Below are positions 14,549 through 38,112 of a stretch of DNA of 55,785 bases, in pieces. The translations under genes and the position numbers were made by a program. Every line of letters begins with the position of its first letter. The first letter of the stretch is position 1. The notes beneath the pieces were generated by a model. The model was not told the origin of the DNA and did no database searches. It saw nothing but the letters and a program-made list of their open reading frames with translations. This stretch comes from Lachnospiraceae bacterium (GTDB taxonomy: Bacteria; Bacillota; Clostridia; Lachnospirales; Lachnospiraceae): positions 1-55,785 of the forward strand of contig CASJPF010000025.1 in assembly GCA_949383255.1 (NCBI GenBank), given 5' to 3'.

Positions 14549-15085
14549 CTAGTCTTCACATATACAAATATGTTGCGCAAAGTCCCACAAATTTTTAAAT
14601 AAACATTTTTTATACTTATCTTGCAGTATCTCTGAAACAGGGTGGCCACTCAGAACTAATGCATATTTACATCCTGCGTTGAATGCCGTCATCAAGTCTG
14701 ACTCTTTATCCCCAACCATATAAGACTGCCCCAAATCAATCTTCCACTCTGCCACTGCACGGTCTATCAAGCCAGTATGTGGTTTTCTACACAGGCATTT
14801 ATCCTGTTCCACATGAGGACAATAATAAAAAGCATCAATCGCTGCATCATGCCTGCTTAAGATTGCATTCATATAATGGTGAAGCTGTTCAACGTCCTGT
14901 TTTTTGTAATATCCTCTGCCGATACCTGACTGATTCGATATCACAATGAGTTTGTATGCATGCGCTTTTAGCAGTCTTAATGCTTGAAATGTTCCATCTA
15001 TAAACACAAGTTTGTCTGTCTCATGCAAATAATCTACTTCAACATTCAAAGTCCCATCCCTATCCAGAAAAACTGCCTTATCCAT
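14549..15085 (-). CDS. gmhB: D-glycero-beta-D-manno-heptose-1,7-bisphosphate 7-phosphatase
   Basis: A 178-residue HAD-IIIA phosphatase of usual GmhB length. The nucleophile and acid are D8 and D10 in FLDRDGTLN. Motif II is SNQSGIGRG, the zinc-binding Cys/His loop is CPHVEQDKCLCRKP, and motif III/IV is VGDKESD. It removes the C7 phosphate from heptose bisphosphate in the cytoplasm. AGGAG lies about 10 bases before the ATG. It is the last gene of an operon that also encodes HldE-type kinase and nucleotidyltransferase, GmhA and a GT9, so the pathway assignment is well supported by context. Confidence 0.9.
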   Translation of the reverse strand: MDKAVFLDRDGTLNVEVDYLHETDKLVFIDGTFQALRLLKAHAYKLIVISNQSGIGRGYYKKQDVEQLHHYMNAILSRHDAAIDAFYYCPHVEQDKCLCRKPHTGLIDRAVAEWKIDLGQSYMVGDKESDLMTAFNAGCKYALVLSGHPVSEILQDKYKKCLFKNLWDFAQHICICED

Positions 15086-15105
15086 TTTATCTTATCTCCT
15101 ATGGC

Positions 15106-16305
15106 CTATCCTGACAACGCTTGAATCACTTGCTCCACGCTTACCTCATCTACACATTGATACCTTCCTGTTTTCAACAGATGCTCCTTGCACGCAGCAG
15201 TAATTTTCTCATATGCACAGCCCGCACAGTCCTTCTTTGCACTGCATACAATAATTGGTTCATGTCCCTTACAGTCACGTTCACAACGATATGGCAGAAA
15301 CCTGCCGTATGCAAACTCTCCAAAAATACAAACACCCTTTGTATTTACTGCAGCCGCAAAATGAATGCCGCTGGTATCATTACCTACTAACAATTCGGCA
15401 TTCCGAATGATTTCAGCAAGCTCAAACAGTGTTGTTCTTCCAAACAAATCATGTACTCTTTCCTTAAGTTCTTCCCGTTTCATTGCCTCCACAAACTGCC
15501 GAAATAGATATGCTTCATTTTGTCCTCCACACAAATACAAATCCATTTCTTTTTCCTTGACAATGTATTCGCCAACCTGCGCATACCGCTCAATTGGCCA
15601 CATTTTTTTCCCAGAACTTCCTCCCGGGAAAATAACAGCATATGGCTTTGGCGGTATGATTTCCTGACGGACATGTGCTTGTGGAAGAGACGGGTATCCC
15701 GCATAAAAATCAAATCCAAGCCCTCTGATAAAGGCAGCATTTCTCTCAAGCTCCATCAGGTTCTTTCCTCCCGACGGAATCAGTCTATCATAAGTAGCAT
15801 CTAATTTTTTACGAATATACCGAAACGCTATAAATCTGCTTAGATTCATTCTGGATTCATCCGCCACAAAAGCAATTTTTTCTTTTGCTGGAATGTTCCT
15901 AGCCAAAAGATCCATATCAATCGTGCGAGAATATTCTGTCTGTAGCAATGTATGAAACATTCTTTTATGAAAACGCCTCCAAATTTCTTTTTTATATTGA
16001 TTATCTGCTTCAAACTTCTTACTCTCTATTGATATCACTTCATCAAAAAATCCTGTATTCTTTGCGATATCGGTGCAAAAAGCATTGCATACCAAAGTAA
16101 TCTTCTGTCCTTTATACAACTTTTTATACTGTTCTGCGCTGTCAAGCCAAATCAAAAAATCTCCAATCGCATCAATTTTTATGATAATTATCCCCTGTGC
16201 ACCACGGGCAGCAGGTCTTTGATTTTTTAGTCCTACTACCCGAAATTGTGTAAACCAGATATTGATCCATCTGCAGGCTTTGTCACATACACTTCGCCAT
16301 GCCAT
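15106..16305 (-). CDS. Glycosyltransferase family 9 (heptosyltransferase-like)
   Basis: About 399 residues. GT9 marks are IIIIKIDAIGDFLIWLDS near residue 40, FPGGSSGKKMWPIERYAQ in the middle, and LLVGNDTSGIHFAAAV with GVCIFG toward the C-terminus. GT9 enzymes transfer heptose from ADP-heptose to a growing glycan. Its place between gmhA and gmhB makes heptose the likely donor sugar. A late CAGC and nearby cysteines may bind a metal. The acceptor in a Gram-positive cell is unknown. The frame opens at a TTG (16314); I prefer the ATG at 16305, just beyond the gmhA stop, with GGAGG 12 bases upstream. Confidence 0.85.
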   Translation of the reverse strand: MAWRSVCDKACRWINIWFTQFRVVGLKNQRPAARGAQGIIIIKIDAIGDFLIWLDSAEQYKKLYKGQKITLVCNAFCTDIAKNTGFFDEVISIESKKFEADNQYKKEIWRRFHKRMFHTLLQTEYSRTIDMDLLARNIPAKEKIAFVADESRMNLSRFIAFRYIRKKLDATYDRLIPSGGKNLMELERNAAFIRGLGFDFYAGYPSLPQAHVRQEIIPPKPYAVIFPGGSSGKKMWPIERYAQVGEYIVKEKEMDLYLCGGQNEAYLFRQFVEAMKREELKERVHDLFGRTTLFELAEIIRNAELLVGNDTSGIHFAAAVNTKGVCIFGEFAYGRFLPYRCERDCKGHEPIIVCSAKKDCAGCAYEKITAACKEHLLKTGRYQCVDEVSVEQVIQALSG

Positions 16306-16306
16306 A

Positions 16307-16909
16307 TCATTCAAAATCCTCCATCCAAAATCCCTGTTCCTGCAGCCCTTTTTCTATCAATCCACAAAGCGTATGAATTAATAAAATATGCATTTCCTGA
16401 ATCCTCGGCGTATTCTCCGAAGGAACATTCAGCAGGTAATCCGCTATTAACTTTATCTTTCCACCTGTAAGACCAGTCAGCCCAATCGTGTGTATGTTCT
16501 GCTTTTTTGCCTCCTGTAAGGCATTGATTACATTTGCAGAATTACCACTGGTTGATATACCAATTAATACATCTCCCTCTCTTCCAAGTGCTGCAACCTG
16601 TTTAGAGAAAATATTCTCATATTCATAATCATTTGCAATCGCTGTCATCACTGTCTGATTTGCATTCAATACAATTGCTGCGATTCCTCTGCGCTCCATC
16701 TGATATCTTCCCACAAGCTCTCCTGCCATATGCAGTGCGTCTGACGCACTTCCGCCATTCCCGCATATCAAAAGCTTATTTCCTCTCAAGTATGCACCTA
16801 TACAGACCCGCGCCACTTGTTCTATTGCTCCAATCAGTGCCTCATCACGCAAAAGTTTTTCTTTTGCTATAATGCTCTCCTGGATATTTTCTCTAATATA
16901 GTTCAGCAT
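16307..16909 (-). CDS. gmhA: Sedoheptulose-7-phosphate isomerase
   Basis: A 200-residue SIS-domain protein. It converts sedoheptulose 7-phosphate to D-glycero-D-manno-heptose 7-phosphate, the first step of the heptose pathway. Diagnostic motifs are CGNGGSASDALHMAGELVGR, STSGNSANV and RIQEMHILLIHTLC, where the last supplies zinc or active-site Glu and His. GGAGG lies about 10 bases upstream of the ATG at 16909, and the start overlaps the upstream gene by 7 bases. A longer reading frame from 16966 would run back into that gene and is not supported. Confidence 0.92.
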   Translation of the reverse strand: MLNYIRENIQESIIAKEKLLRDEALIGAIEQVARVCIGAYLRGNKLLICGNGGSASDALHMAGELVGRYQMERRGIAAIVLNANQTVMTAIANDYEYENIFSKQVAALGREGDVLIGISTSGNSANVINALQEAKKQNIHTIGLTGLTGGKIKLIADYLLNVPSENTPRIQEMHILLIHTLCGLIEKGLQEQGFWMEDFE

Positions 16910-17397
16910 ACACTTCTGCCCTCCACTGCTCTTTTTATTTTTTCTATGATATTTGTTGTAGAGCATCCATCTACCATACTGACATAATCAACTCTGCCTC
17001 CATAGACAGCGGTGTGCTCCATCTCTGGAATCTGTACCCCTGCATAATCACCGCCTTTCACAACAATATCAGGCTGTATTCGGTCAATAATACGACATGG
17101 CGTCCTATCCGAAAAAATGCATACATAATCTACACTCTCAAGCCCTGCAATGACAACTGCCCGTTCCTGTTCTGGCACAATTGGTCTAAAACTGCCTTTG
17201 AGTGCCCGAACAGAACTGTCCGAATTAAGCAGCACTACTAGAATATCCCCTTTTGCCTTTGCCTCCGCTAAATAGGTAACATGTCCTGCATGCAGAACAT
17301 CAAAACATCCACTTGTAGATACAACAATCTGTTTCTGTTGTCTTGCTTTCTGTACTTCTTGTTCAAGCTCATCCAAAGTTATAATCTTTTTTCTCAT
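16903..17397 (-). CDS. hldE2 (rfaE2): Heptose 1-phosphate nucleotidyltransferase (HldE C-terminal domain type)
   Basis: A 164-residue stand-alone nucleotidyltransferase equal to the C-terminal domain of HldE. The signature is TSGCFDVLHAGHVTYLAEAK, with ALKGSFRPIVPEQERA and VVKGGDY after it. It should join AMP from ATP to D-glycero-beta-D-manno-heptose 1-phosphate, giving ADP-heptose. In E. coli the kinase and this domain are fused; here they are two genes overlapping by about 29 bases, a split form known in other bacteria. GGAG is 7 bases before the ATG. Confidence 0.88.
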   Translation of the reverse strand: MRKKIITLDELEQEVQKARQQKQIVVSTSGCFDVLHAGHVTYLAEAKAKGDILVVLLNSDSSVRALKGSFRPIVPEQERAVVIAGLESVDYVCIFSDRTPCRIIDRIQPDIVVKGGDYAGVQIPEMEHTAVYGGRVDYVSMVDGCSTTNIIEKIKRAVEGRSVC

Positions 17398-18373
17398 TTA
17401 ATTTCTCCATCAACTCATCTCTTGTGACAACTGCTGTCCCTCTTTTCCCTATAACAATTCCTGCCGCAATATTGGCTAAAATTACCGCCTCATCAATTGT
17501 AAGTCCACTCGCAAGCCCTAATGTAACTGCGCTAATTACAGTATCGCCGGCACCTGTAACATCAAACACTTGAACTGCCTTGGAAGCGTAATCTCTTCTA
17601 TTACTGCCGTTTTCAAAAATGGATATCCCCTCAGAGCCTCTTGTCACAATGATGCATTTCGCCTTGGATCGCTCCAAATAAGCTTTACCTGCCCTATCTA
17701 ATGAATCCAAATCCCCTATCTGAATATTGACTGCGTTTTCTAATTCCAGGTTATTTGGCTTAACAAAACTCGCATTCTCAAAAGCATCAATATGTCGGCT
17801 TTTGGAATCGACTGTAACAATAACATGATTTATATTGCAAAGATGAATTATCTTTCTCACAAACTTTGAGTCGTCCAACACACCCTTACAATAATCTGAA
17901 AGCACTACAGCATCCCACTCAGATATGTGAGATGCAATATATTCAAAAATTTTTGTACAAACGTTCTCCTGTATTGGGCTGTTATCTTCTTTATCCACCC
18001 GCAAAAGCTGCTGCGCCTTCGTCGCAAAACGTATCTTAACAGTAGTCAGGCGATCTCCATCTGCAAAAATACCCTCTGTATCAATAGAGGCATTTCTCAA
18101 AAACTCCCTGAGCCATATCCCACTGTCGTCCAATCCCGCTACGCCTGCCATAGCAAGTTTTCCACCCATAGCATGCATATTTAATGCCACATTGGAAGCT
18201 CCCCCTGCACTTCTCTGTGTTCCTTTGTAATTTAAAATAGGAACCGGAGCCTCCGGTGATATTCTGCCTACTTTTCCCAGAATATATTCGTCTACCATCA
18301 AATCTCCAAGCACCAAAATCCGCTTCTTATGAAAATTATTTAGAACAGCATTTGCCAATCGATCCTCTCGCAT
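17369..18373 (-). CDS. hldE1 (rfaE1): Heptose 7-phosphate kinase (HldE N-terminal domain type)
   Basis: A 334-residue PfkB/ribokinase-type sugar kinase equal to the N-terminal domain of HldE. Marks are LVLGDLMVDEYILGKVGRIS, SAGGASNVALNM, SDYCKGVL, DSKSRHID and the PfkB active-site signature DVTGAGDT near the C-terminus. It phosphorylates heptose 7-phosphate at C1 in the beta form, pointing to the ADP-heptose rather than the GDP-heptose branch (which uses a GHMP kinase). I start at 18373, which has AAAGGA 10 bases upstream and lies 4 bases past the previous gene; the frame from 18469 would overlap that gene. Confidence 0.9.
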   Translation of the reverse strand: MREDRLANAVLNNFHKKRILVLGDLMVDEYILGKVGRISPEAPVPILNYKGTQRSAGGASNVALNMHAMGGKLAMAGVAGLDDSGIWLREFLRNASIDTEGIFADGDRLTTVKIRFATKAQQLLRVDKEDNSPIQENVCTKIFEYIASHISEWDAVVLSDYCKGVLDDSKFVRKIIHLCNINHVIVTVDSKSRHIDAFENASFVKPNNLELENAVNIQIGDLDSLDRAGKAYLERSKAKCIIVTRGSEGISIFENGSNRRDYASKAVQVFDVTGAGDTVISAVTLGLASGLTIDEAVILANIAAGIVIGKRGTAVVTRDELMEKLNEKKDYNFG

Positions 18374-18377
18374 AAAG

Positions 18378-19385
18378 TTATAATCCTTTCCCAGAACATG
18401 TATTGTTGTCTGTTTCTGCTTTCTCCTGATCGCTTCTACTACCACGTTCAATATTTGTTTCTCGTTCAATATAGATAGGACGATTCTTTACCTCCATATA
18501 AATTCGTGCAAGATACTCCCCAATTACCCCTAATGTGGTGATAATCACCCCCCCCAGAAACAGAAGGACAATCATAATGCTGTTGTAACCAGTTCTAGGA
18601 ACAAGTGGGTTTTTGAGCGCGGCAATACCAATTGTAGCAGCATACAGAAAAGAAGCAATTGTAATGATTATACCGAGATATATCACTCCGCGCAAGGGCG
18701 TTGTCGCAAAAGCGATAAATCCATTGTAAGCATAACGCAACAATCCAAAAAAACTCCATTTGGTGTGCCCTGCAACCCGCTCAACATTTTCATACTCTAT
18801 CCACTTGTTTTTAAATCCCACCCAAGAATAAATTCCTTTTGTAAAACGCTCTCGTTCACTCATTGACACAATGGAATCCACAACAGTTCTCTTCATTAAA
18901 CAGTAATCTGTACTTCCTGATATCAAATCTAAGACAGTAATATAATTAATAATCGAGTAAAACGCCTTTGAAAAAACACTTCTTATCAAAGGCTCTCCTT
19001 TTCTGGATACCCGCCTTGCAGTAGCTCTGTCATATCCTTCTTTTTCAATTGCGTCAATCATTTGTACTAACAATTTGGGTGGATGCTGTAAATCTGCATC
19101 TATAAGTGCAACGTAGTCGCCAGTGCTTTTGCTTAATCCTGCATAGATTGCCGATTCTTTTCCAAAATTTCTTGAGAGGGCAATATACTGTACCAGCCCT
19201 TCATTTGCAGTTTCTACCACCCTTTTAATTTCGTCTAGTGTATTATCTTTACTCCCATCATCAACATATGTGATGATAAAATGAAAAGCAGGAAGTTCCT
19301 GAAAAACTTCCTTAACAGCATTATAAAATAATTTGATACATTTCTCTTCATTATAACATGGTACGATTAATTCTATTGTTTTCAT
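18378..19385 (-). CDS. GT2 polyprenyl-phosphate glycosyltransferase (GtrB/DPM1-like)
   Basis: About 335 residues. The GT-A domain begins IELIVPCYNEEKC, with YVDDGSKDNT near 40-49 and the DADLQHP metal site near 95. Two C-terminal membrane helices are followed by GVIGEYLARIYMEVKNRPIY. It should load a sugar onto undecaprenyl phosphate for use outside the membrane, perhaps by the DUF6311 protein in the same operon. The ATG at 19385 has AAGGA about 6 bases upstream; the frame from 19457 would add residues that overlap the upstream gene. Second of three GtrB-like enzymes in the window. Confidence 0.85.
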   Translation of the reverse strand: MKTIELIVPCYNEEKCIKLFYNAVKEVFQELPAFHFIITYVDDGSKDNTLDEIKRVVETANEGLVQYIALSRNFGKESAIYAGLSKSTGDYVALIDADLQHPPKLLVQMIDAIEKEGYDRATARRVSRKGEPLIRSVFSKAFYSIINYITVLDLISGSTDYCLMKRTVVDSIVSMSERERFTKGIYSWVGFKNKWIEYENVERVAGHTKWSFFGLLRYAYNGFIAFATTPLRGVIYLGIIITIASFLYAATIGIAALKNPLVPRTGYNSIMIVLLFLGGVIITTLGVIGEYLARIYMEVKNRPIYIERETNIERGSRSDQEKAETDNNTCSGKGL

Positions 19386-27192: not shown

Positions 27193-27295
27193 ACCTATTT
27201 ACCCAAAAAAATCCACAATATTATTTTTAACAAATTTTTATTTGTTTAATACCTATTTTCACATCGTTTGTATACAAAGACTATAAAAAAGAAAA

Positions 27296-27351
27296 CCGCA
27301 GAATCTAAAAACCCATAGTAAGACTATACAGGTATCTTAATTCATCTGCGG
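27296..27351 (-). terminator. Intrinsic terminator of the 27-32 kb minus module
   Basis: Outer stem CCGCAGA (27296-27302) with TCTGCGG (27345-27351) plus an inner ATAGT/ACTAT hairpin. On the minus strand it is followed by TTTTCTTTTTT. It lies just after the pyruvyl transferase gene. Confidence 0.65.
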
Positions 27352-27384: not shown

Positions 27385-28584
27385 TTATCGCATCCAGTCA
27401 AAAGCCGTTTCATATAAATTGCTGTTTTCTATTATTTTATTATATTTTTGAGTGATTATCTGCCTTTCTTTCTGAAAATTCTTACACATCTCATGAATGA
27501 TTCCATCGAGTACATGCTCATCATATCCTGATAAATCTATAACATACTTCTCCTGTGCAACTTTCCGTGCCAGCTCTTGGTACTTATCCGCCCATCCAAT
27601 CACAACACAGGGCGTGCCTGCCTTATAGGAATGCACCACACCATGATACCGCGAAGCAACTGCAAAATCAATCTGTCCAACTAGCCTGGCAAACGCAATA
27701 CAGTCAACTTCCTCATCAATGTATACTACGTTGTCTTCCATTTCAAATTTGTCTGCCAGAGCTGCACAAAACTCCCTGTCACTGTCACAGTGCCTGATAA
27801 TATACACACGTTTTCCCTCACGGAGCAGTGCACAGACTGCTGACAGATAGATATTTCCCCCGCTCACGTTTGATGCATGTACTTTAAGTTTCTGGTTTGG
27901 TATTACTGCCACACTTCCCGCTTCCATTTTATATGTCTTCACAAGACTGAGATTTCTGTAAAACTGCTTTGGATTCAGAGCCTCTCCCAGCAGAACCAAA
28001 TCAGACGACAAAAAAAGATTCTCTGCCAAACAATATTTTTTCATCAAATTAAAACCAGACTGCTCTCTTGCATAAATCTTTTTTGGGTATTGCAAAATCC
28101 TTTTTGCTTTTCGCAGCAACACCCATCCAAACCACTTCGGATAATCAAATGGTCCAAACGACTGCGGCATAACAATTACAGGAATCTTAAACTTTTTCAT
28201 AAGTTCTATTTTCTTCAGCCATATATAATTATCCAAAAATCCAAACTTACTTGAAAAAACAAATCCACTTGCGTCAACGCACAAATCCGCATTGCACAAA
28301 ACCTTGCGCAAATTTGCACTGTTTCTCTGGCTCTGTATTCCCCTTGCACGCCCTGCCAGACTATACAGTCCTCCTTGCGCATCAAAAAAATCTGCTGGAT
28401 AAAAAGATAAAGTGCGCAGCTTATATTGTTCCCTGTATTTTTTCAACTGCTGTTCAGAATTTTTACATAGTGCAACCACTTTCTTATCTGGCCATTTTTT
28501 TTGCAGATAATAATACAAGTGGAACATCATTGCCTCTGCACCCTTGTTATTAAAGTTGATACCTGTAATTAAAATGTATCTCAT
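27385..28584 (-). CDS. Polysaccharide pyruvyl transferase family protein
   Basis: A 399-residue GT-B-like protein of the polysaccharide pyruvyl transferase family (PF04230). It opens YILITGINFNNKGAEAMMFHL, the typical glycine-rich N-terminus. The C-terminal half has VASRYHGVVHSYKAGTPCVV, the diagnostic RxHG block. Family members add pyruvate ketals from phosphoenolpyruvate, though many in gene clusters are untested. It is last in the minus module, after the flippase and Fe-S protein. I start at 28584 with AGGAGG 8 bases upstream rather than at 28659. Confidence 0.85.
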   Translation of the reverse strand: MRYILITGINFNNKGAEAMMFHLYYYLQKKWPDKKVVALCKNSEQQLKKYREQYKLRTLSFYPADFFDAQGGLYSLAGRARGIQSQRNSANLRKVLCNADLCVDASGFVFSSKFGFLDNYIWLKKIELMKKFKIPVIVMPQSFGPFDYPKWFGWVLLRKAKRILQYPKKIYAREQSGFNLMKKYCLAENLFLSSDLVLLGEALNPKQFYRNLSLVKTYKMEAGSVAVIPNQKLKVHASNVSGGNIYLSAVCALLREGKRVYIIRHCDSDREFCAALADKFEMEDNVVYIDEEVDCIAFARLVGQIDFAVASRYHGVVHSYKAGTPCVVIGWADKYQELARKVAQEKYVIDLSGYDEHVLDGIIHEMCKNFQKERQIITQKYNKIIENSNLYETAFDWMR

Positions 28585-28606
28585 ATAGATGCCTCCTATT
28601 GAATCC

Positions 28607-30157
28607 TTACGCCCTATGTGTCTTTTCCCTGCATTTACAGACCACTTTTTTGCATCCATTTAACAGAATCTCTTTTAAATAGCCAAATTCCTCCGTCTTA
28701 TGATAAAACAAAAAATACCCACTGTTTGGTATCAGCATCACAGCAATACATCGTACTGCAAATCCCCCCATACCTCCAAACGGAATCGCAACTGCCAGCC
28801 ATACGGTTGCAGTCCCTGTAAGCAGTGTTACAAAAACAGCTTTCCCATATGCATAAAAGTACTGTCTGACTGGCTTCTTAAAAACATTTCGATAAATTAA
28901 AACAGGATCATACCACCAGGTCGTGAAAAGCCAGCTCAAAATGGTTCCCAAAATAACCCCTGCAAGCCCAATCCGCACAACTAGCGTAATCGAAATAACA
29001 ATATTTAAGATTGCCGTCATAACTGGTCGCATTTTTCCTTTCCAAAAGAGTCCACATGCGTCCCTATATATAAATGAAGTTCTTTGAAAACCGTTTATTA
29101 TAAAATATAAGACCTGCAAAAATACCAAATCTGCTGAAAAAGTTCTCTCTTTGCCAAAAAAAATTAGAATCACCGGATTTATTAACACTAAAATACCAAT
29201 GCCGACAAACGAGTAAAACCAGTAACAGAGTAACTGTATACACCGAAAAACAAATTCGCTTTTCTCCTCTGACTCCTCTACAAATAAATTTCCTATTGTT
29301 GCCGTTACCCCTGCAAACAGCTGCATGACAATCTGAGAAATTCCAGAAATTATCGTCTGATAATTTCCATATAATGCCACAACCTTTATATGAATAAACG
29401 CAGATATCAAAATATTGTCTGTAGAATTGACAATTGTTGTATTCACTTTAAACAATGCCATGCCAAAAACATCCTTAAAAATATGCTTTTTCTCGTCCGT
29501 CTCAAGCCTCTTATAACTAGAATCCTTTATAAAAAGATATACCTTGTCTACTGTAATTGAAACCAATATATTAATCAGAACATTTGACAGAAGTCCAATG
29601 ACAGAGTAGAGCAAAAAATTCCGAAACATTGCAAGTGTAACAAGTTGAACTATTGTCACAACAAAATTGATGAGAACTTGGTAAAAGTTTACCAGATACA
29701 GTTTTTGATCTGCACGCAGCAAAATGCTCTTATATGCCCAAAACCAGTAAGATGATGCGGACTGAACCACATACAGCATATAAACCAAGTTCAAATCCAC
29801 CAAGTCCGTCGTTCCCTTAACCAGCCACGGCAAAAAAGGAAGTAGAACTATACCTACGGCCATAATGACAAAACCAATCAGAAAATAGATGCGTTTGAGG
29901 AAATGCATAATTGACTTAATTTTTTCTGTATCTCCCTCTGCAAGCGGCTCATACAGGCTAAACCCGATTGCCGTCCCAATCCCCAGCTCCGCCATGCTAA
30001 GAATGGACAATATATTGGTGAGAAGACTAGAAACCCCTAGATATTCATCACTGAGAAACTGAACAAAAATAATGCGGCTCACAAATAGAAGCACACCAGA
30101 AAAAAGCGTCCCTACTCCCCCCACCACAATATTAATAATTGCCTTTTTAACTCTCAT
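28607..30157 (-). CDS. Oligosaccharide flippase (Wzx-like, MOP superfamily)
   Basis: A 516-residue protein with about 12-14 membrane helices. The N-terminal block GVGTLFSGVLLFVSRIIFVQ, with YLGVSSLLTNILSILSMAELG after it, is typical of polysaccharide translocases. It should flip an undecaprenyl-pyrophosphate-linked glycan to the outer face. GGAG lies about 8 bases before the ATG. It is the flippase of the minus-strand module of the putative switch; the plus module carries its own flippase (34582-36084). One of four flippases in this window. Confidence 0.85.
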   Translation of the reverse strand: MRVKKAIINIVVGGVGTLFSGVLLFVSRIIFVQFLSDEYLGVSSLLTNILSILSMAELGIGTAIGFSLYEPLAEGDTEKIKSIMHFLKRIYFLIGFVIMAVGIVLLPFLPWLVKGTTDLVDLNLVYMLYVVQSASSYWFWAYKSILLRADQKLYLVNFYQVLINFVVTIVQLVTLAMFRNFLLYSVIGLLSNVLINILVSITVDKVYLFIKDSSYKRLETDEKKHIFKDVFGMALFKVNTTIVNSTDNILISAFIHIKVVALYGNYQTIISGISQIVMQLFAGVTATIGNLFVEESEEKSEFVFRCIQLLCYWFYSFVGIGILVLINPVILIFFGKERTFSADLVFLQVLYFIINGFQRTSFIYRDACGLFWKGKMRPVMTAILNIVISITLVVRIGLAGVILGTILSWLFTTWWYDPVLIYRNVFKKPVRQYFYAYGKAVFVTLLTGTATVWLAVAIPFGGMGGFAVRCIAVMLIPNSGYFLFYHKTEEFGYLKEILLNGCKKVVCKCREKTHRA

Positions 30158-30168
30158 CTATTTCTCCA

Positions 30169-31443
30169 TCATGATTTTTTGTACAAATGCAACCCAATAA
30201 GCAGTTTGCCCAACCCCATTCTGGCCAATTTTATTGCGCGATATCGTCTGATGCATCCATAGGAGCGGCTCTCTCCCAGTCTCTGCTTTCTCAATTGTTT
30301 TTTCAGGCGCTCTCTGTCCTTTCTGCCAACTTTGCAATCTGTTGCGCCAGACGGCTTCAGATCACAGGGAATCCCATACTCCACCTGACGCCCATTATGC
30401 GCATCTGCGAAAACCAGATTGTTCATCCACTGGTTTTCAAACTTTTTGTCTAAATGCTGTGAACTTTTAATATCCGAGTATTCGGCGTGGAACATAAAAA
30501 ATTCATCCTGACAGTGCTCCCATGATTTCTGTCCAGCCGCTGTTCTGACAATCAGACTGCTAGACCCTTCCGCGGAATCATCTTTTTTGGTATAGTTATC
30601 CCCAACCGACAGGTCTGCTTCCACATTTAATTTATCCATGCAGTACAGACATCGTTTCTGCTTACAGAACGCTTTCACAATCATCCGCTCATTCGCCGGA
30701 AGATGTACATGTGTTCCATTCTGAAATTCCATTCGGATATTTCCTGGCCAGCCACCTGCTCTCTTATCCCGAAAATGCAGCGCTTTCACAGGGCTGTTCC
30801 ATGATTTTAACCGCTTCAGGTATTCATATATAGAATAGGTCATTGTTTGATCGCAAAATAACCCTAGTATCAGGACCTGTTCACGGCTGCGCCCTGCCTC
30901 CTTCAGTGCATTGCACAGTCCATGCACTGCACAGCCGGTTCCAACAAAAATAACCCTTTTATCAGGATTTTCCAAGATAAACCGGACTGCTTTTTCCTGC
31001 GACACAGGAATATATCTTGACTGTTGTGTCCTTTGAAGTATCTCCTCTTCACAGATAGGCTTTGTCTCTAACTGATTTTCATAGTCATAATCCAGTACGA
31101 GAAATGCTGTGTGGTACTGGCCATCACGTAGCAGTTTTCGCACCATAGCTGTAACCACCCCACCACTGGAGGCATGCTTCAAAATTTTTTTATCCTTTGC
31201 CTGTACAGAAAAGCAGAGTGGTTCCTTTTCTATCTTAGTATCATATGTGTATGCATATCCCGGACAAGTTCTTAGACATTTTCCACATTGAATACATTTA
31301 TCATGGTTAATTACTGGCAGATATGTTTCATTCCGCCGCTCAAAACATATACAAGATACAGGACATACTGCCGCACATATCCCACATGATGTACAAAGCC
31401 CGTCCTCTGTTGTCCTATCAATATTTCGCATTTTTTTATCCAT
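30169..31443 (-). CDS. Coenzyme F420 hydrogenase/dehydrogenase beta-subunit family iron-sulfur protein
   Basis: A 424-residue protein. Two ferredoxin-type 4Fe-4S motifs lie at the N-terminus: CTSCGICAAVCPVSC (about 18-32) and CIQCGKCLRTCP (about 50-61). Then comes HASSGGVVTAMV and the FrhB-type domain, with VGTGCAVHGLCNAL in the middle. Homologues beside polysaccharide pyruvyl transferases are common in capsule clusters, including here. The reaction is not established; a flavin- and iron-sulfur-dependent redox step on a sugar or lipid is plausible. No F420 genes are nearby, so the family name should not be read as function. Confidence 0.8.
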   Translation of the reverse strand: MDKKMRNIDRTTEDGLCTSCGICAAVCPVSCICFERRNETYLPVINHDKCIQCGKCLRTCPGYAYTYDTKIEKEPLCFSVQAKDKKILKHASSGGVVTAMVRKLLRDGQYHTAFLVLDYDYENQLETKPICEEEILQRTQQSRYIPVSQEKAVRFILENPDKRVIFVGTGCAVHGLCNALKEAGRSREQVLILGLFCDQTMTYSIYEYLKRLKSWNSPVKALHFRDKRAGGWPGNIRMEFQNGTHVHLPANERMIVKAFCKQKRCLYCMDKLNVEADLSVGDNYTKKDDSAEGSSSLIVRTAAGQKSWEHCQDEFFMFHAEYSDIKSSQHLDKKFENQWMNNLVFADAHNGRQVEYGIPCDLKPSGATDCKVGRKDRERLKKQLRKQRLGESRSYGCIRRYRAIKLARMGLGKLLIGLHLYKKS

Positions 31444-31471: not shown

Positions 31472-32449
31472 TCATTGCATATTTTGCTTTACATAGTAAT
31501 TTGAATCCAATTTCCTGTGGCTACGGTTTTCTGCCCATTTTTTTAACAAATCAAAATTCAGTTGTTTCCATGAAAAAAGTGGAATCCTGCTCTGGAAAAA
31601 CTGATTCATAATGTATAGATACTTTCTAAATCCATAGTGCTGCCGCGCTGCCATACATATCATCCCCAAACCTGTACAGTCCAGGTTTTTGAAATCCTTT
31701 TTGGAATATTTTTTTTTGATGAACCGACAGACTTTTAAAAACTCCTGCAACCGAATCTCATAGGCATCCCACTCTATATGCGTTGTCAGTGACCCTTTGC
31801 TTTTCGTAACACAATATATTGTCTGCTGTGAAACTGTAACCTTGCTACTATGATATCCAACTTTGGTCATAAACATAATATCATTAAAAAATAACACCTC
31901 ATCAAAGCGAATATTGTGCTGATATACTACTGAATGACGAATCATACTTGCCCATGGCGCATTTGTCGCAAGCTTAATGCGTAGCATATTTTCCCTACTA
32001 GGCTTTGCGATATACTGGTTTATCCGCTTTTCATATGCCTCGTGCCTGTTACATGGTTTTCCTGAATCCAGATAAATACTGGTTGGCGTAAAAAAAACTT
32101 CATCATAATCCGATTCAAAATATGCTGACACGATATCGTACATTCCATCCACATAAAAATCATCCGCATCGGCAAACAATAACCACTTTCCATCTGCATG
32201 CTTCAACCCAATATTTCTGCATGCCCCGGCGCCCTTCACATATGAATCATTTATATAAAATTCAACGTTCTGACCATATTCCGCTCTCACACGATTAAGT
32301 TTTTCCAATCCCATACTACTGTTATCATCAACAACCACAATTTGTATATCTTTGTCCACTGGAATAGAACGAATAAGTTTCTCTAATAAATCAGGAGTAT
32401 TGTAATGCGGAATAATTATGCTAAGGTTTCTTTTCCATTCTTTTCTCAT
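31472..32449 (-). CDS. Glycosyltransferase family 2, first gene of the minus module
   Basis: A 325-residue GT2. It opens RNLSIIIPHYNTPDLLEKL, with IVVVDDNSS and the metal site FADADDFYVDGMYD. A strong paralogue, similar along its whole length and with the same HYNTP and FADADDFF motifs, lies on the opposite strand at 33579-34550. The two stand either side of the putative promoter switch. AAAGGA is about 8 bases before the ATG, and the left inverted-repeat site ends only 23 bases upstream. In the orientation sequenced here, the best promoter in the switch points away from this gene. Confidence 0.85.
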   Translation of the reverse strand: MRKEWKRNLSIIIPHYNTPDLLEKLIRSIPVDKDIQIVVVDDNSSMGLEKLNRVRAEYGQNVEFYINDSYVKGAGACRNIGLKHADGKWLLFADADDFYVDGMYDIVSAYFESDYDEVFFTPTSIYLDSGKPCNRHEAYEKRINQYIAKPSRENMLRIKLATNAPWASMIRHSVVYQHNIRFDEVLFFNDIMFMTKVGYHSSKVTVSQQTIYCVTKSKGSLTTHIEWDAYEIRLQEFLKVCRFIKKKYSKKDFKNLDCTGLGMICMAARQHYGFRKYLYIMNQFFQSRIPLFSWKQLNFDLLKKWAENRSHRKLDSNYYVKQNMQ

Positions 32450-32472
32450 TCTTTTTCCTTTAAAAAACGACC

Positions 32473-32498
32473 TTACAAAAAAGTGTACTTTTTTGTAA
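32473..32498 (+). repeat. Left crossover-like site, 12-2-12 palindrome
   Basis: Arm TTACAAAAAAGT (32473-32484), centre GT (32485-32486), right arm the exact reverse complement (32487-32498). The 26-bp length, AT-rich arms and off-symmetry two-base centre match the plan of hix-type serine recombinase sites. Confidence 0.65.
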
Positions 32499-32555
32499 AT
32501 ATAGAACAGTTGGAGAATCGTAAAATCACATGTCGAAAGAGGCGAAAAATTATTA

Positions 32556-32584
32556 TTGCAAACTCATTTGAACTGATGTAAACT
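32556..32584 (+). promoter_or_regulatory. Promoter inside the putative switch, pointing to the plus module
   Basis: TTGCAA (32556-32561), 17-bp spacer, TAAACT (32579-32584). Each hexamer matches four of six consensus bases. A weaker opposite-strand candidate (TTTACA, 19-bp spacer, AATAAT) overlaps it. Confidence 0.45.
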
Positions 32585-32607
32585 AAATAAAAAACATAAT
32601 TATAGAC

Positions 32608-32633
32608 TTACAAAAAAGTACACTTTTTTAATA
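32608..32633 (-). repeat. Right crossover-like site, inverted relative to the left
   Basis: Arm TTACAAAAAAGT (32608-32619), centre AC (32620-32621), then ACTTTTTT followed by a diverged AATA end. Read on the minus strand the centre becomes GT, as in the left site. Positions 32608-32629 are the exact reverse complement of 32477-32498. Confidence 0.65.
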
Positions 32634-32662
32634 CCTAAACAAAATAGAAAGGAACGATTATC

Positions 32663-33547
32663 ATGAATCCATATAAACTTCAACAGTCTATTGAACATGT
32701 TCCAGATATACTCATCGGAATGTTACTTCGCCAAAAAATTGAACATTCATCTTATAGGTTTGGTATAAATACAGAGAAAAACAGAAAAGAAAAAATCATA
32801 GTATCCTTAAAAACTTACAATAAACGCTATGAAACCATTGGGAGCACCTTAAAAAGCTTGTTGCTTCAAACTGTAAAACCGGATCATATTATTGTCTGGC
32901 TGGATGAAGATACCATAGAAAATAAAATAACAGAAGAAATGAGAAGCTTTGAACAGTATGGTATAGAATATAAGCATAGAAATCTTGGCTTGAAACCTCA
33001 TGGTAAATATTTCTATGCAATGCAGGAATTTCCAAACGACATTATCATTACAGTTGATGATGATATCATTTATCCTCCTAAATTAATTGAATCTTTGATG
33101 AAAACTCATGAAAAATATCCCCAATCCGTATGTGCACGAAGAGTCCATTTAATTACATTTAATTCTAACGGCAAACTTCAAAAATACAGTGATTGGAAAT
33201 ATGAATACAGAAGAATATTAACACCTTCCTATCTACTATGTGCTACTGGCGGTGCTGGCGCTCTATATCCACCACATGCGCTTCCCGAAGAAGCGTTTAT
33301 TATAGATAATATAAAAAAGTATTGTCTTACCGCAGACGATTTGTGGCTCAAAGTAATGGAACTCAAAAACGAGGTTACTGTCATATGGGTTAAAAACCAT
33401 TTGATATTACCCCCATTAGTAAAAGGTGCTCAAAAAAATGCACTTTCAATAAAAAATGTGACGCAATGTGAAAATGATCTATTTATACAGAAACTTGAAG
33501 AGATATATCCAAATGTTTTTCAGTTTTTGGTTAATTGCAACCATTAA
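32663..33547 (+). CDS. Glycosyltransferase, GT2-like (GT-A fold), first gene of the plus module
   Basis: A 294-residue protein with a GT-A-like layout. Marks are VSLKTYNKRYETIGSTLKSL, IIVWLDED, the acidic metal site ITVDDDIIYPP (near 130-140) and a late ADDLWLKVMELK that resembles the catalytic ED/DD block. It has no membrane segment. AAGGAA is about 9 bases before the ATG. It lies 29 bp past the right switch site. There is no obvious counterpart in the minus module. Donor and acceptor unknown. Confidence 0.75.
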   Translation: MNPYKLQQSIEHVPDILIGMLLRQKIEHSSYRFGINTEKNRKEKIIVSLKTYNKRYETIGSTLKSLLLQTVKPDHIIVWLDEDTIENKITEEMRSFEQYGIEYKHRNLGLKPHGKYFYAMQEFPNDIIITVDDDIIYPPKLIESLMKTHEKYPQSVCARRVHLITFNSNGKLQKYSDWKYEYRRILTPSYLLCATGGAGALYPPHALPEEAFIIDNIKKYCLTADDLWLKVMELKNEVTVIWVKNHLILPPLVKGAQKNALSIKNVTQCENDLFIQKLEEIYPNVFQFLVNCNH

Positions 33548-33578
33548 TTACCCTATAACATAATCGGAGGAACACGAA

Positions 33579-34550
33579 ATGGCAAAAAAGTATATGAGGA
33601 ATCTCAGTATCATTATTCCACATTATAATACTCCGGAATTATTGTATAAATTAATTGATTCCATTCCACAGTCTCCAGATGTACAAATCATTGTGGTTGA
33701 TGACAACAGTAATCATCATTTACAAATATTAACAGAATTACAAAAAAAGTATTGTGACCTTGTCCAATTTTATACTAATAATACTAGGCGGAAGGGTGCA
33801 GGAACTTGTAGAAATATCGGTTTACAACATGCAGATGGCAAATGGATTCTGTTTGCAGATGCAGATGATTTTTTTATGCCAGAAATGTATGAGAAAGTTT
33901 GTACTTACTTTGAAACAGATTATGATGAAGTGTTTTTTATCCCTACAAGCATCTATCTTGATACAGGAAAAATCGCCAATAGACATTTAAAGTTGAAAAA
34001 GTGTATCAATCATTTTCTTGAAAATCCAACCAAGGAAAACCTTTTGCGATTAAAAATAACAACTTGTTCTCCGTGTTCGAGATTAATCAAACACGACCTT
34101 ATTAGACAACACAATATACAATTTAAAGAAATACTATATTCTAATGATATCATGTTCACTGCCCAAAGTGGTTATTACAGTAAAAAAATAGCAGCAGACA
34201 AAAATATTATCTATTGTATGACAAGAAACCATGGTTCTCTCACAACACACACTGATTGGAATACTTTTCTAATAAGGCTTTATGAAGAAATAAACGTTTG
34301 TGATTTCCTATTAGAACACTATTCCAAAAGAGAGCTAAAAAAAATGCAATATGCCTGTAGCATAAGATTAGCGGAAGCAGTACGCCATCACTATGGATTT
34401 AAAAAGTATTTATTTATTATAAAACTATACATTCAACATGGTGTTCCAATGCTTTCCAGAGAACAATTAAACTTAAACTCACTAATAAATTATATCAAAA
34501 GTCTTTATTCAAATGGAACAGATTCAAATTATTATGTAAAAAATAAATGA
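33579..34550 (+). CDS. Glycosyltransferase family 2, paralogue of the minus-module GT2
   Basis: A 323-residue GT2 that opens RNLSIIIPHYNTPELLYKL, with IVVDDNSN and FADADDFFMPEMYE. It mirrors the 325-residue gene at 31472-32449 in length and motifs, and both end in a YYVK stretch. Having one copy on each side of a promoter switch suggests alternative enzymes for the same step. GGAGG lies 7-8 bases before the ATG. The base composition is more AT-rich than its paralogue, hinting at separate history. Confidence 0.85.
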   Translation: MAKKYMRNLSIIIPHYNTPELLYKLIDSIPQSPDVQIIVVDDNSNHHLQILTELQKKYCDLVQFYTNNTRRKGAGTCRNIGLQHADGKWILFADADDFFMPEMYEKVCTYFETDYDEVFFIPTSIYLDTGKIANRHLKLKKCINHFLENPTKENLLRLKITTCSPCSRLIKHDLIRQHNIQFKEILYSNDIMFTAQSGYYSKKIAADKNIIYCMTRNHGSLTTHTDWNTFLIRLYEEINVCDFLLEHYSKRELKKMQYACSIRLAEAVRHHYGFKKYLFIIKLYIQHGVPMLSREQLNLNSLINYIKSLYSNGTDSNYYVKNK

Positions 34551-34581
34551 TTTTATGCTGATGAAAGGAAGAATCGAACAA

Positions 34582-36084
34582 ATGCGCAACAGACATTTTC
34601 TTTATAATACAATTGCATCACTTTTCTGTCAGCTCATTGGTATCATTTGTGGCATGTTACTTCCAAGATTAATGATATCTGGTTTTGGTTCTGAGCTTTA
34701 TGGTACAACTGTTTCTATAGCAGAATTTCTAGGTTACATTTCTCTTCTTGAAGGGGGAATCGGTGGTGTGGCACGAGCGGCATTATATAAGCCGCTTTCT
34801 GAACACGATACGAATACCTTGAATCTCGTATTAGCTTCTGTACGACAATTTTTTAAAAAGATTGCCTTTATTTTCATTGGCTATACATTAATACTTGCTT
34901 GTTCCTTTAAATACATTGCTTCAAATTATAGTCTTAGTTGGACATTCACTTTTTGCCTTGTTTTCGTAATTTCTTTATCAAATCTTGCAGAGTATTATAT
35001 GGGAATTTCAAATTCGATATTACTCCATGCAGATCAACGTGGGTATATTATCAGACTACTTCAAAGTGGGACAACAATATTTAACATCTTATTAACTTGT
35101 ATTCTTATTTATTATAATTGTAATATTCTATCTGTTAAATTTTCTTATTGTTTCCTTCATATTATCAGAATTCTAATACTTAATGAATACGTTAAAAAAC
35201 ATTACTCTATCAAAGAGATCCCTGCTCAAGCAAATTATTTAAAACAAAAATGGGATTGCCTAGGACAACATATTGCATATTTCCTGCATTCTAAAACTGA
35301 CTTTTTTGTATTAACAATTTTTGTAACCCCATTAGAAGTTGCTGTTTATTCTATATATAGTTATATCATGACAAGTCTTGTCACACTCACTGGCTCCTTT
35401 ACTGCTGGTTCAGAAGCAGTATTTGGAAACATGCTTGCACAACATGAAACCAAACGTTTAATGCAATTCTTTGATTTTATAGAATTTTTGATTCATTTCG
35501 TTGTGATTACTATATTTACAACGGGAGCAATTATGATTATGCCATTTATCCAATTATATACAAATACATTTACAGATGCAGAATATTATAGACCTATTGC
35601 AGCAGGATTACTTTTGCTTGCCGAAGGCATTTATTGCCTAAGACAACCATATCACCAATTGACAATTGCCGCCGGAGAATTTAAATCTACAAAAAAAGCT
35701 GCTTTTATAGAAGCTGGATTAAATATCATATTATCCTGTATTCTTGTGCATAAAAACGGCATTATAGGCGTTGCATTAGCAACTGTAACAGCGATGATTT
35801 ACCGAACTATCTACTATATTCTATATTTATCACAACATATTATAAAACGAAAAGTATGTAAATTTATAAAGCGCTGGATTGTAACACTAATTAATGTATG
35901 TACGATACTACTATGTTTTTATTATCTTCCACTTCAAGTACAGGAAATCCAGAATTATCTGGAGTGGATTAAGAGCGCAATAATTGTATTCTGTTTTTCT
36001 GCCATTATAACCAGCATATTTTCCTTAATATTTTATAGAAAGGAATGGAATCAACTAATAAAGAAAGGAAACCTAAATATTTAA
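34582..36084 (+). CDS. Oligosaccharide flippase of the plus module (Wzx-like)
   Basis: A 500-residue polytopic protein of the polysaccharide translocase type, with about 12-14 helices. N-terminal marks are NTIASLFCQLIGIICGMLLP and GSELYGTTVSIAEFLGYISL. It would export the glycan built by the plus module and is functionally parallel to the flippase at 28607-30157, though the two sequences are distant. I start at 34582 (ATGCGC), which has AGGAAG about 10 bases upstream; an ATG at 34555 adds nine residues and lacks a site. Confidence 0.83.
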   Translation: MRNRHFLYNTIASLFCQLIGIICGMLLPRLMISGFGSELYGTTVSIAEFLGYISLLEGGIGGVARAALYKPLSEHDTNTLNLVLASVRQFFKKIAFIFIGYTLILACSFKYIASNYSLSWTFTFCLVFVISLSNLAEYYMGISNSILLHADQRGYIIRLLQSGTTIFNILLTCILIYYNCNILSVKFSYCFLHIIRILILNEYVKKHYSIKEIPAQANYLKQKWDCLGQHIAYFLHSKTDFFVLTIFVTPLEVAVYSIYSYIMTSLVTLTGSFTAGSEAVFGNMLAQHETKRLMQFFDFIEFLIHFVVITIFTTGAIMIMPFIQLYTNTFTDAEYYRPIAAGLLLLAEGIYCLRQPYHQLTIAAGEFKSTKKAAFIEAGLNIILSCILVHKNGIIGVALATVTAMIYRTIYYILYLSQHIIKRKVCKFIKRWIVTLINVCTILLCFYYLPLQVQEIQNYLEWIKSAIIVFCFSAIITSIFSLIFYRKEWNQLIKKGNLNI

Positions 36085-36114: not shown

Positions 36115-36120
36115 TATAAT
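36115..36120 (+). promoter_or_regulatory. Candidate -10 box for the serine recombinase
   Basis: Perfect TATAAT, 45 bases before the ATG, with no convincing -35. The preceding AAAAGTGTA echoes the middle of the switch sites, so a decayed site here is possible. The recombinase may also be read from the flippase transcript, which ends 80 bp upstream. Confidence 0.35.
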
Positions 36121-36164
36121 TTCTCCAAACACAAATTTACATATATATTTTGGAGGGGTAAACA

Positions 36165-36749
36165 ATGAATTATGGATATGTTCGAGTCAGCACTCGGGAA
36201 CAGAATGAGGACAGGCAGTTGCTTGCATTGCACGGCATTGGTATTTCTGCCCAAAACATCTATATTGACAAACAATCTGGGAAAGATTTCCAGCGTCCAT
36301 CTTATACGAAAATGGTCCGAGAGCTGAAAAAAAATGATGTACTCTTCATAAAAAGCATTGACCGGCTAGGACGCAATTACGAAGAAATCATAGAACAATG
36401 GCGTATGCTGACAAAAGAGAAACAGATTGATATTGCAGTACTAGATATGCCACTTCTGGATACACGTCAAGGAAAGGATCTTATTGGAACTTTTTTAAGT
36501 GATGTTGTATTACAAATACTCTCTTTTGTCGCCCAAAACGAAAGAGAAAACATACGACAACGGCAATCTGAAGGAATCTGTGCTGCAAAAGCCCGTGGTG
36601 TACGATTTGGCAGACCATCCCATCCACTACCCGACAATTTTGAAAAAACATGTCTTCGCTGGAAGCAAGGCGAGATATCTGGCACAGAAGCTGCTAGAAT
36701 CTGCGGAATGCCATTATCTACATTTCGATACAAGGCATTGCATTTCTGA
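36165..36749 (+). CDS. Small serine recombinase (resolvase/invertase family)
   Basis: A 194-residue protein, the usual size of Hin/Gin/Pin-type invertases. The catalytic domain opens YGYVRVSTREQNEDRQ, with S9 as nucleophile, R44 in SGKDFQRP, and DRLGR at 66-70 with R67 and R70. The long E-helix runs to about 135. GRPSHPLP leads into a C-terminal helix-turn-helix (about 158-192: GTEAARICGMPLSTFRYK). It has no large-serine-integrase extension. GGAGGGG is about 7 bases before the ATG. As last gene of the plus module and the only recombinase in the window, it is the natural catalyst for inversion at 32473-32633. Confidence 0.88.
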   Translation: MNYGYVRVSTREQNEDRQLLALHGIGISAQNIYIDKQSGKDFQRPSYTKMVRELKKNDVLFIKSIDRLGRNYEEIIEQWRMLTKEKQIDIAVLDMPLLDTRQGKDLIGTFLSDVVLQILSFVAQNERENIRQRQSEGICAAKARGVRFGRPSHPLPDNFEKTCLRWKQGEISGTEAARICGMPLSTFRYKALHF

Positions 36750-36809
36750 TCTTATCTAAAATACATTATTTTACTATATCAGAATATATCATGTTACAAT
36801 TAAAAAATT

Positions 36810-36846
36810 AAGGATTAAGTATCCACTCAGTTGGATCTTAATCCTT
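36810..36846. terminator. Bidirectional intrinsic terminator
   Basis: Stem AAGGATTAAG (36810-36819) with CTTAATCCTT (36837-36846) and an inner ATCCA/TGGAT stem. T-runs follow on both strands. It separates the plus module from the convergent acyltransferase operon. Confidence 0.8.
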
Positions 36847-36848
36847 TT

Positions 36849-36934
36849 ATGCACGGCACCCAAAAAGTATGCCAGCAAAACAGACGAGTGTCCAGCGACC
36901 GAGTAGGAGAGGAAGAGTCTTCCTTAATCGATTT
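36849..36934 (+). repeat. Dispersed intergenic repeat, family A copy 2
   Basis: Same order of blocks as 5394-5486 (minus): ATGCAC, GGCACCCAAA, CAGCAAAAC, then GTCC, CGAGTAGGAGAGG and TCGATT. It lies directly beside a terminator, as does copy 1. No protein is encoded. Confidence 0.65.
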
Positions 36935-37014
36935 ATAATCTACAAAATTCCCAATCAACTTGTCTTTGTATAACTCTATTATATTGTGTTAAAGAAGCAT
37001 TAGAAATTTATAGC

Positions 37015-38112
37015 TCATTGATAAAATTCTTCAAGTCGCTTACACACTAATCGATACACTTTACACTTATAAATTGACCTATCCATTACAAAAATCCTTA
37101 CATTATCCACGCAAACACTCACCACAAATATTGCTGCAATTACAAACAGCGAATAAACAATTCCGTTTCCAGATTCTACAGCAGGATCTATCCGAAATAT
37201 TCCATTCCACATATAATTATAAAACGCTGGTGTTTGATGAATAATATACACTGCAAATGTTGAACGAGATACTAAATTCACAAAACGATTCGGTCTTATA
37301 TTCCAATTCTTAAATATAAAGAAAAGAGCCAGAGAACATATAAAACCCAAAAGTGCCTCATAATGTGCATAATAATGAATAAAAATTCTATACAATCCCT
37401 CATGATTTAAGTAATTTGCTAATACTCTTATTCCACATAAAAACAGATACCCTACTATAAACCACAAAAGACTATATTTTTCAAACCATTGATATTTAAA
37501 AAATTGATATCTCTTATAAAGCCCTATAAATAGATACAAAAAGCAAAACCAAATCAATTCACTAAATGCAGGGGTAACATGTTCTATTGGAAACAGCGTG
37601 GCACATCCTATAATCAATATGCCAAATAATTTTATTATTTGTTTCGTTTTCTGCTGATTTTTTTCCATGAGCATTTCATTCAACCACGGTGTTAACAGTA
37701 ATAAACAAATATATTCCGATCCAAACCATACTGGTCTTCCAAAAATTGGAAAACATGCTTGTATCAACGTAGTTATATTAGCATCTTTACATCCAATCAC
37801 AATGCAAATAACTGTTATACTAACAGCATACAAAAATATTTCCATCCATAAATTAACAACTCTCTCAGCCCTAAACTTAGTATCTACCAAAAACCACGCG
37901 CCTATCATAACAAATGTATTACACACAAACCGTCCAGCAGAGCCTAACAATATACTATAATAATAATCTACTCCATCACCAATCAAGTAATCACCCATCT
38001 TTGTCTGTCTGGTAATATGCAATCCCATTATTAGCAGCATACATACAATACGTAACAATTCAAAATTACTCTGCCGTTTTTCCAAATCTGCAACCCTTTC
38101 ACTTCTACTCAT
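37015..38112 (-). CDS. Acyltransferase family 3 membrane protein
   Basis: A 365-residue polytopic protein of the acyltransferase-3 family (PF01757). Early marks are NFELLRIVCMLLIMGLHI, where the conserved histidine of helix 1 lies, and a later FVNLVSRSTFAVYIIHQ typical of the family end. About 10 helices are visible. Members acetylate surface sugars or lipids. It overlaps the upstream gene by 8 bases at an ATGAGTAG junction, so I take 38112 as start; longer frames up to 38160 are possible. It is last in the O-acylation operon. Confidence 0.83.
   Translation of the reverse strand: MSRSERVADLEKRQSNFELLRIVCMLLIMGLHITRQTKMGDYLIGDGVDYYYSILLGSAGRFVCNTFVMIGAWFLVDTKFRAERVVNLWMEIFLYAVSITVICIVIGCKDANITTLIQACFPIFGRPVWFGSEYICLLLLTPWLNEMLMEKNQQKTKQIIKLFGILIIGCATLFPIEHVTPAFSELIWFCFLYLFIGLYKRYQFFKYQWFEKYSLLWFIVGYLFLCGIRVLANYLNHEGLYRIFIHYYAHYEALLGFICSLALFFIFKNWNIRPNRFVNLVSRSTFAVYIIHQTPAFYNYMWNGIFRIDPAVESGNGIVYSLFVIAAIFVVSVCVDNVRIFVMDRSIYKCKVYRLVCKRLEEFYQ

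Follow-up and report, generated by a model that had tools for sequence, protein, structure and literature searches.

A single promoter on an invertible segment reportedly serves genes on both sides of it in the sap locus of Campylobacter fetus, an arrangement that Dworkin and Blaser are said to have described in 1996. The segment there spans several kilobases, the genes that it serves encode S-layer proteins, and homologous recombination is involved. Invertible promoters that are driven by serine recombinases occur at the capsule loci of Bacteroides (PMC8375218, PMC3090145). In Salmonella, the serine recombinase Hin uses a 65-bp enhancer that is bound by Fis and lies about 100 bp from one of its sites (PMC3798978). 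Clostridia also have invertons (PMC5903667, PMC11892184), and the PhaseFinderDC gut catalogue lists Clostridia-type invertons together with proximity-linked invertases (PMC11892184).

The stretch of DNA analyzed here (the window) is a contig of 55,785 nucleotides, CASJPF010000025.1, from a Lachnospiraceae bacterium. It contains a short intergenic segment, bounded by inverted sites, between two divergent sets of glycan genes (Table 1), and this segment is inverted between species. We consider it probable that the segment is a promoter switch, predicted from sequence comparison, that would be flipped by a small serine recombinase (Rec) and would serve one of the two glycan modules at a time.

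Table 1. Coordinates of the segment, its predicted elements and the flanking genes in the window
Feature	Position	Strand	Remarks
Left recombination site TTACAAAAAAGT-GT-ACTTTTTTGTAA	32473..32498		Perfect 12-2-12 palindrome, asymmetric centre GT
Right recombination site	32608..32633		Inverted relative to left site, centre AC, outer arm imperfect (9/12)
Interior of invertible segment, 109 bp	32499..32607		Aligns to G022 when reversed
Predicted promoter TTGCAA-17-TAAACT	32556..32584	+	Toward plus module in assembly; family matrix from relatives
GT2a, family 2 glycosyltransferase, first minus-module gene	31472..32449	-	Pfam Glycos_transf_2, E 1.6e-20
FrhB/FdhB-like iron-sulphur protein, minus module	30169..31443	-	Pfam PF04432, E 7.5e-24
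Flippase-like membrane protein, minus module	28607..30157	-	MatE 22.7 bits, under the 24.9 cut-off
Polysaccharide pyruvyl transferase, last minus-module gene	27385..28659	-	Pfam PF04230, E 1.2e-26
Terminator-like hairpin and T-rich tail, 3' of minus module	27285..27351	-	RNA fold z -1.99, 7/200 shuffles as good; weak
GT2b, family 2 glycosyltransferase, first plus-module gene	32663..33547	+	Pfam Glycos_transf_2, E 3e-13
GT2c, glycosyltransferase, plus module	33579..34550	+	GT2a paralogue, 51% identity
Flippase-like protein, 509 aa, plus module	34555..36084	+	From domains and names of homologues
TATAAT, candidate own promoter of Rec	36115..36120	+	Invariant in window, G022, G021 and G034; no good -35 seen
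Rec, small serine recombinase, 194 aa, presumed invertase of segment	36165..36749	+	Pfam Resolvase (PF00239), E 1.7e-27
Terminator-like hairpin and T-rich tail after Rec, plus-module end	36810..36846	+	RNA fold z -4.64, 0/200 shuffles as good

Inverted sites, divergent modules and the predicted promoter

As is expected of an inverton, inverted repeats surround an intergenic segment, here about 135 bp long. The two 26-bp inverted sites with centres GT and AC and their 109-bp interior lie at the positions given in the first-pass annotation. When the sites are compared in inverted orientation, 23 of 26 bases are identical and 22 of these are contiguous, against 21 of 26 identities in the same direction. 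The 12-2-12 symmetry that had been ascribed to both sites is complete only in the left one, which has 12 of 12 arm matches; the right site has 9 of 12. An 18-bp site core has no exact match in the whole assembly (4,384,441 bases, 86.42% complete) other than these two sites. If two mismatches are allowed, five further places appear, compared with three for a reversed-pattern control. Within the window, the core has four matches with at most three mismatches, the mean in shuffled sequence is 0.39, and none of 100 shuffles reached four or more.

Both modules begin close to the sites, as had been proposed. The measured gaps between site and start codon are 23 bp on the minus side and 29 bp on the plus side, and an AAAGGA-type ribosome-binding site occupies this interval upstream of both GT2a and GT2b. 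The genes that follow have intergenic gaps of 28, 11 and -53 bp in the minus module before a gap of 251 bp past the pyruvyl transferase gene, and gaps of 31, 4 and 80 bp in the plus module, the last of which precedes Rec. Between the modules, the flippase-like proteins show only distant kinship (22% identity, E 3e-15). Although the 509-aa protein of the plus module has no Pfam match of its own, some of the 120 homologues listed for it carry MatE or Polysacc_synt domains or are named as export proteins. A homologue bearing the name of Lachnospiraceae bacterium A4, a likely cultured relative, has 83% identity to it, equal to the value for the protein of the congener G022. The hairpins at the module ends come from RNA folding, and a terminator scan listed neither of them. 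Elsewhere in the window (14549-18469, minus strand), genes for a HAD phosphatase, a family 9 glycosyltransferase, and SIS and PfkB proteins are adjacent. Together they look like a pathway for nucleotide-linked heptose plus a heptosyltransferase, which to our knowledge is unusual in this bacterial group.

The sequence TTGCAA-17-TAAACT, previously suggested as a promoter between the sites, is present there with its hexamers at 32556-32561 and 32579-32584, and the suggestion gains support from related segments. A promoter matrix learnt from the segments of 25 relatives (consensus TTGAAA-17-TATAAT) ranks it as the best site of the segment with a score of 10.3, which 17 of 500 shuffles equal. The best score on the opposite strand is 2.4, with 374 of 500 shuffles as good, and nothing there rises above chance. 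A matrix from 50 loci gives the window segment 11.6 versus 1.9 for the other strand. The segment of a congener (G022) has identical hexamers and spacer length, and that of a further species (G034) has TTGTAA-17-TAAACT. A generic sigma-70 scan did not list the window's sequence, whose -10 element TAAACT is far from consensus, and the predicted promoter may therefore have low activity or depend on an additional protein. Generic promoter scans were set aside as evidence, since their match numbers are at chance level (34 versus 31.3 expected, and 70 versus 69.0). Further promoters may lie within either module.

With the segment oriented as in the assembly, transcription from the predicted promoter would run into the genes for GT2b, GT2c, the plus-module flippase-like protein and Rec. 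If the segment flips, then the promoter would instead point toward GT2a, the FrhB-like protein, the other flippase-like protein and the pyruvyl transferase, so that expression of the two modules would be exclusive.

Orientation of the segment in related species

The interior of the segment is reversed in two congeners. In G022 the locus is syntenic, and seven neighboring genes have protein identities of 76-93% (Rec 93%, plus genes 76-83%, minus genes 80-89%). Its two sites match perfectly over 22 bp in inverted orientation and enclose 109 bp. The two interiors are identical at 87 of 109 positions only if one of them is reversed relative to the flanks, and they do not align otherwise. In G021 the minus flank is collinear with the window over 4.5 kb at 87% identity and is followed by 98 bp of the segment, reversed, at 91%; this contig stops inside the segment and therefore carries one flank only. 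A shuffled-identity control for the interior alignment left end gaps unpenalized and gives little guidance (mean 8, maximum 54.5%); the argument for inversion rests on the contrast between reversed and collinear alignment. When the window's intergenic region was compared with 38 genomes of the genus, the interior was found only in G000, G022 and G021, and one site alone was found in G027.

The recombinase gene of G021 (96% identity) is on another contig, behind genes for a 516-aa protein, LicD and a cytidylyltransferase. Comparison of that contig (L037:153-3037) with window positions 32663-36084 shows that the genes before Rec are wholly different in this nearest relative, whereas Rec itself and the block just upstream of it have been retained. 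If the two G021 contigs join, as we infer, then the plus module looks as if it has been exchanged in this species.

G034 has sites 137 bp apart that form a 22-bp perfect repeat in the same layout as the window. On one side lie two GT2 genes, an FrhB-like gene (67%) and a flippase-like gene (71%). On the other side are genes for a sulfatase-family protein, two GT2 enzymes and proteins of 492 and 517 aa, with Rec (78%) at the end. The predicted promoter of this segment is directed toward the FrhB side (10.1 vs -0.3) and away from Rec, opposite to that of the window. Outside this group, L069 (an Acetatifactor MAG) and L096 (Merdimonas faecis) are collinear over 6.4 kb at 85% except for one reversed 139-bp piece, which is the segment. 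Similar segments could be compared in five pairs of relatives, and this pair alone differs in orientation; in the other four the orientation is the same.

The first-pass annotation had held that a fixed orientation across strains would speak against a switch. A comparison between species did not reveal such fixation: G022 and G021 carry the interior reversed, and the predicted promoter of G034 faces the opposite way. Both orientations that an inverton should have are thus represented between species, by the window on the one hand and by G022 and G021 on the other. Old, fixed inversions would produce the same picture.

The recurrence of the two-glycan-module layout in G022 and G034 also bears on the possibility that the segment is a plain on/off switch of one module and that the other module has a constitutive promoter of its own. 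Most invertible promoters described in the relevant parts of PMC3090145 and PMC8375218 are of the on/off kind, and most relatives have the recombinase on one side of the segment and the controlled gene on the other. However, the 23- and 29-bp gaps between site and start codon, each already containing a ribosome-binding site, leave no visible room for another promoter. We regard a plain on/off switch as unlikely.

The recombinase and its association with the sites

Given that the same segment is reversed in related species, a nearby recombinase gene likely encodes the flipping enzyme. Rec, which the first-pass annotation left unnamed, is the last gene of the plus module, 3.5 kb from the segment. 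It combines the small size and Resolvase catalytic domain of DNA invertases and matches PHROG 125 'DNA invertase' with 173.8 bits. Its residues 5-10 read YVRVST and align with the VRVS-type motif of Sin; Ser9 in this N-terminal motif is the presumed catalytic serine of Rec. Among PDB entries, the score is highest for Sin (102 bits), followed by gamma-delta resolvase (76.6) and the DNA invertase 3uj3/4m6f (56.4-56.6). The Mpi model NCBIfam NF009949 gives 43.7 bits, below its cut-off of 272. These PDB and NCBIfam comparisons give no ground for identifying Rec as a Hin or an Mpi. In relatives the segment lies 3' of the recombinase gene. A search for a second segment in that place in the window found none, and the inverted repeats present at 36650-37200 extend over just 11 nt.

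The TATAAT upstream of Rec and its surrounding bases are kept in four species even though G021 and G034 have other genes in front of Rec. This conservation suggests that Rec probably has its own promoter, in which case both states of the segment could flip back. Nucleotides 36119-36159 of the window can form a hairpin (CTCCAAA/TTTGGAG) that covers the Rec ribosome-binding site, and the same fold is found in G021. The hairpin may hold translation of Rec low.

These features also enter into the question of whether the segment inverted at some time in the past and is now a locked or dead switch, with a fossil promoter in one fixed state. The two orientations are known between species with one genome for each, the outer arm of the right site has decayed, and the hairpin over the ribosome-binding site could likewise be taken as a sign of disuse. 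Against this, the reading frame of Rec is open over its full length and its product is 93-96% identical in two congeners, no mismatch interrupts the 22-bp repeat either here or in G022, and decayed outer half-sites are common among relatives. We regard a dead switch as quite unlikely.

The site is associated with the recombinase family across relatives. Inverted pairs resembling AAAGTGTACTTT occur within 1 kb downstream of rec in 25 of 80 relatives (named genomes), and three control motifs gave none each. In a looser test, an inverted site pair was found within 350 bp downstream in 48 of 100 distinct relatives, compared with 1 of 100 for a reversed-motif control. These 100 relatives were found by protein alone after removal of the site-selected loci, and with the latter included the count is 50 of 102. 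The remaining 52 have no such pair by the same test; variant sites are present in some of them, and none were found in others. A de novo search for 20-bp inverted pairs, which assumes no motif, recovered pairs downstream of rec at 28 of 75 loci (one of which, L132, has a different repeat), 2 upstream and 0 at a distance of 2 kb, the control stretches being fewer than 75 due to short contigs. A pattern search for perfect pairs is too strict for a census; of 397 genomes of the family it picked out 6, and its control picked out 1. Among the five perfect-pair loci outside the window, a Rec relative is present at four and absent from L153.

The first site begins 28-56 bp past the end of the rec match in 48 of 50 relatives, and this order of rec followed by the segment is the ancestral-looking plan outside the two-module clade. 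Genes after the cassette at the ten loci scanned encode a cytosine methylase, LRR/collagen, TadZ-like, TnpB-like, helicase, Band 7 and other proteins, and two have no Pfam match; the first five of these gene types follow a recombinase and segment at L062, L072, L080, L103 and L115. The predicted promoter is directed toward rec in 34 of the 50 segments, away from it in 10, and ambiguous in 6. The assemblies of relatives therefore mostly show the state that is predicted to be off for the downstream gene.

Two further explanations fit poorly with this association. The first is that the segment is inverted by another recombinase elsewhere, with Rec being incidental or serving other sites. Master invertases that act at a distance, such as Mpi, are known (PMC5903667), Rec is not immediately adjacent to the sites, and the genome contains other serine-recombinase-like matches (E 1e-7 to 2.5e-4). 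These matches are partial and weak, however, and the site core is found with 48 of 100 members of the Rec family, whereas the control motif is found with 1. We regard a different enzyme as very unlikely. The second is that a conventional transcription factor binds the palindromes as a pair of operators at divergent promoters and that the DNA does not invert. A divergent intergenic region is the usual place for such operators, but they would leave the reversed interiors of G022, G021 and the L069/L096 pair unexplained, and the same pair of sites is found beside recombinase genes and before unrelated genes. We give this explanation hardly any weight.

If Rec is the enzyme of the preferred promoter switch, then each 12-2-12 site would be bound by Rec dimers, which would cleave the DNA at the central GT before strand exchange. 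Because the centre is asymmetric, the ends could rejoin only as an inversion. Some relatives have pairs with the symmetric centre AT (L039:17415 and 17552; also L018, L022 and L120, downstream of rec). Such a centre has no polarity, and another factor, perhaps the spacing of the sites, would be needed to favor inversion over failed joining.

In 50 relatives, the centres of the two sites are separated by 94, 106, 115-116, 125-129, 134-139, 147, 169, 176 and 229 bp; they are 135 bp in the window and G022 and 137 bp in G034. Their periodicity peaks near 10.5 bp (R 0.734, or 0.738 without site-selected loci). Tested for phase against the main 137-bp cluster, the eight other clusters give p = 0.0023; 176 and 229 are off phase. 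We read this statistical pattern, which comes from related loci, as a sign that both sites may need to lie on one helical face. If the 10.5-bp rule is true, then these loci offer natural material for studying loop closure by a serine invertase over very short DNA.

A quick tree of the recombinases was built from 65 rows picked from the loci, and 33 of its 62 inner branches lack support. It unites the window, G021, G022 and G034, the sole rows labelled two-module, on a single branch (SH-aLRT 93, below the 95 mark). Presence or absence of the site pair does not cluster on this 65-row tree. With somewhat less than even confidence, we suggest that the locus derives from a widespread, undescribed Clostridia cassette, consisting of a small serine invertase and a segment of about 94-230 bp with sites on the same helix face, that was rewired in one Lachnospiraceae clade into a glycan selector. 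The enzyme of such a cassette would synapse its sites with no separate enhancer, although the loop between them is below the stiffness length of DNA. During rewiring, the recombinase might have moved to the end of one module and gained its promoter block, after which the module before it became exchangeable. A cell with this arrangement would pick between a stable and a swappable coat.

Comparison with described switches

A search of the main text of papers did not find the site string in connection with inversion. Of four papers that contain the string, one has it as a streptococcal primer, and the other three are on plant, worm and malaria subjects. Within the same literature, no paper combines an invertible promoter, a serine recombinase and Lachnospiraceae. 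The PhaseFinderDC invertons belong to the same general class; the site is absent from the main text of PMC11892184, and its Firmicutes_A groups may overlap with the present family. Invertible promoters are already known, and what is new here is the proposed two-module selector and the cassette family.

The locus resembles the Mpi and FinA loci of Bacteroides in having a serine recombinase and a short intergenic segment, here with a predicted promoter, in inverted repeats before polysaccharide genes with flippases (PMC8375218, PMC3090145). The sites differ, with ARACGTTCGTN given for Bacteroides (PMC8375218) and TTACAAAAAAGTGTACTTTTTTGTAA found here. The Bacteroides segments are described as 183-186 bp long and as on/off switches for one locus, whereas the present segment is about 135 bp long and lies between two modules. 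One Mpi enzyme acts at many loci, whereas here the core pair is confined to one locus of an 86%-complete genome.

Of the likeness to Hin and Gin that the first-pass annotation drew, only the 26-bp 12-2-12 site plan is retained. The 26-bp sites, the position of the promoter (here a predicted one) on an inverted segment and the serine recombinase are shared with the Hin/hix system of Salmonella (PMC3798978). However, Hin inverts about 1 kb and its gene is inside the segment (PMC3798978), whereas Rec is encoded outside a segment of about 135 bp, and its sequence has more in common with Sin and gamma-delta resolvase than with the Gin-type invertase among the PDB entries.

The proposed switch predicts that in a little-studied group of gut Clostridia a DNA inversion determines which of the alternative surface glycans is made, much as in the capsules of Bacteroides, and such a choice would be likely to affect phages and host immunity. 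The site motif can be used to find further Clostridia switches, and since an enzyme, a site and an expected promoter can be named, the prediction is directly testable. Like the S-layer switch of the C. fetus sap locus, the segment would have a single invertible promoter that serves different genes on its two sides, but here it would do so on a mini-segment, with a dedicated serine recombinase and for glycan modules.
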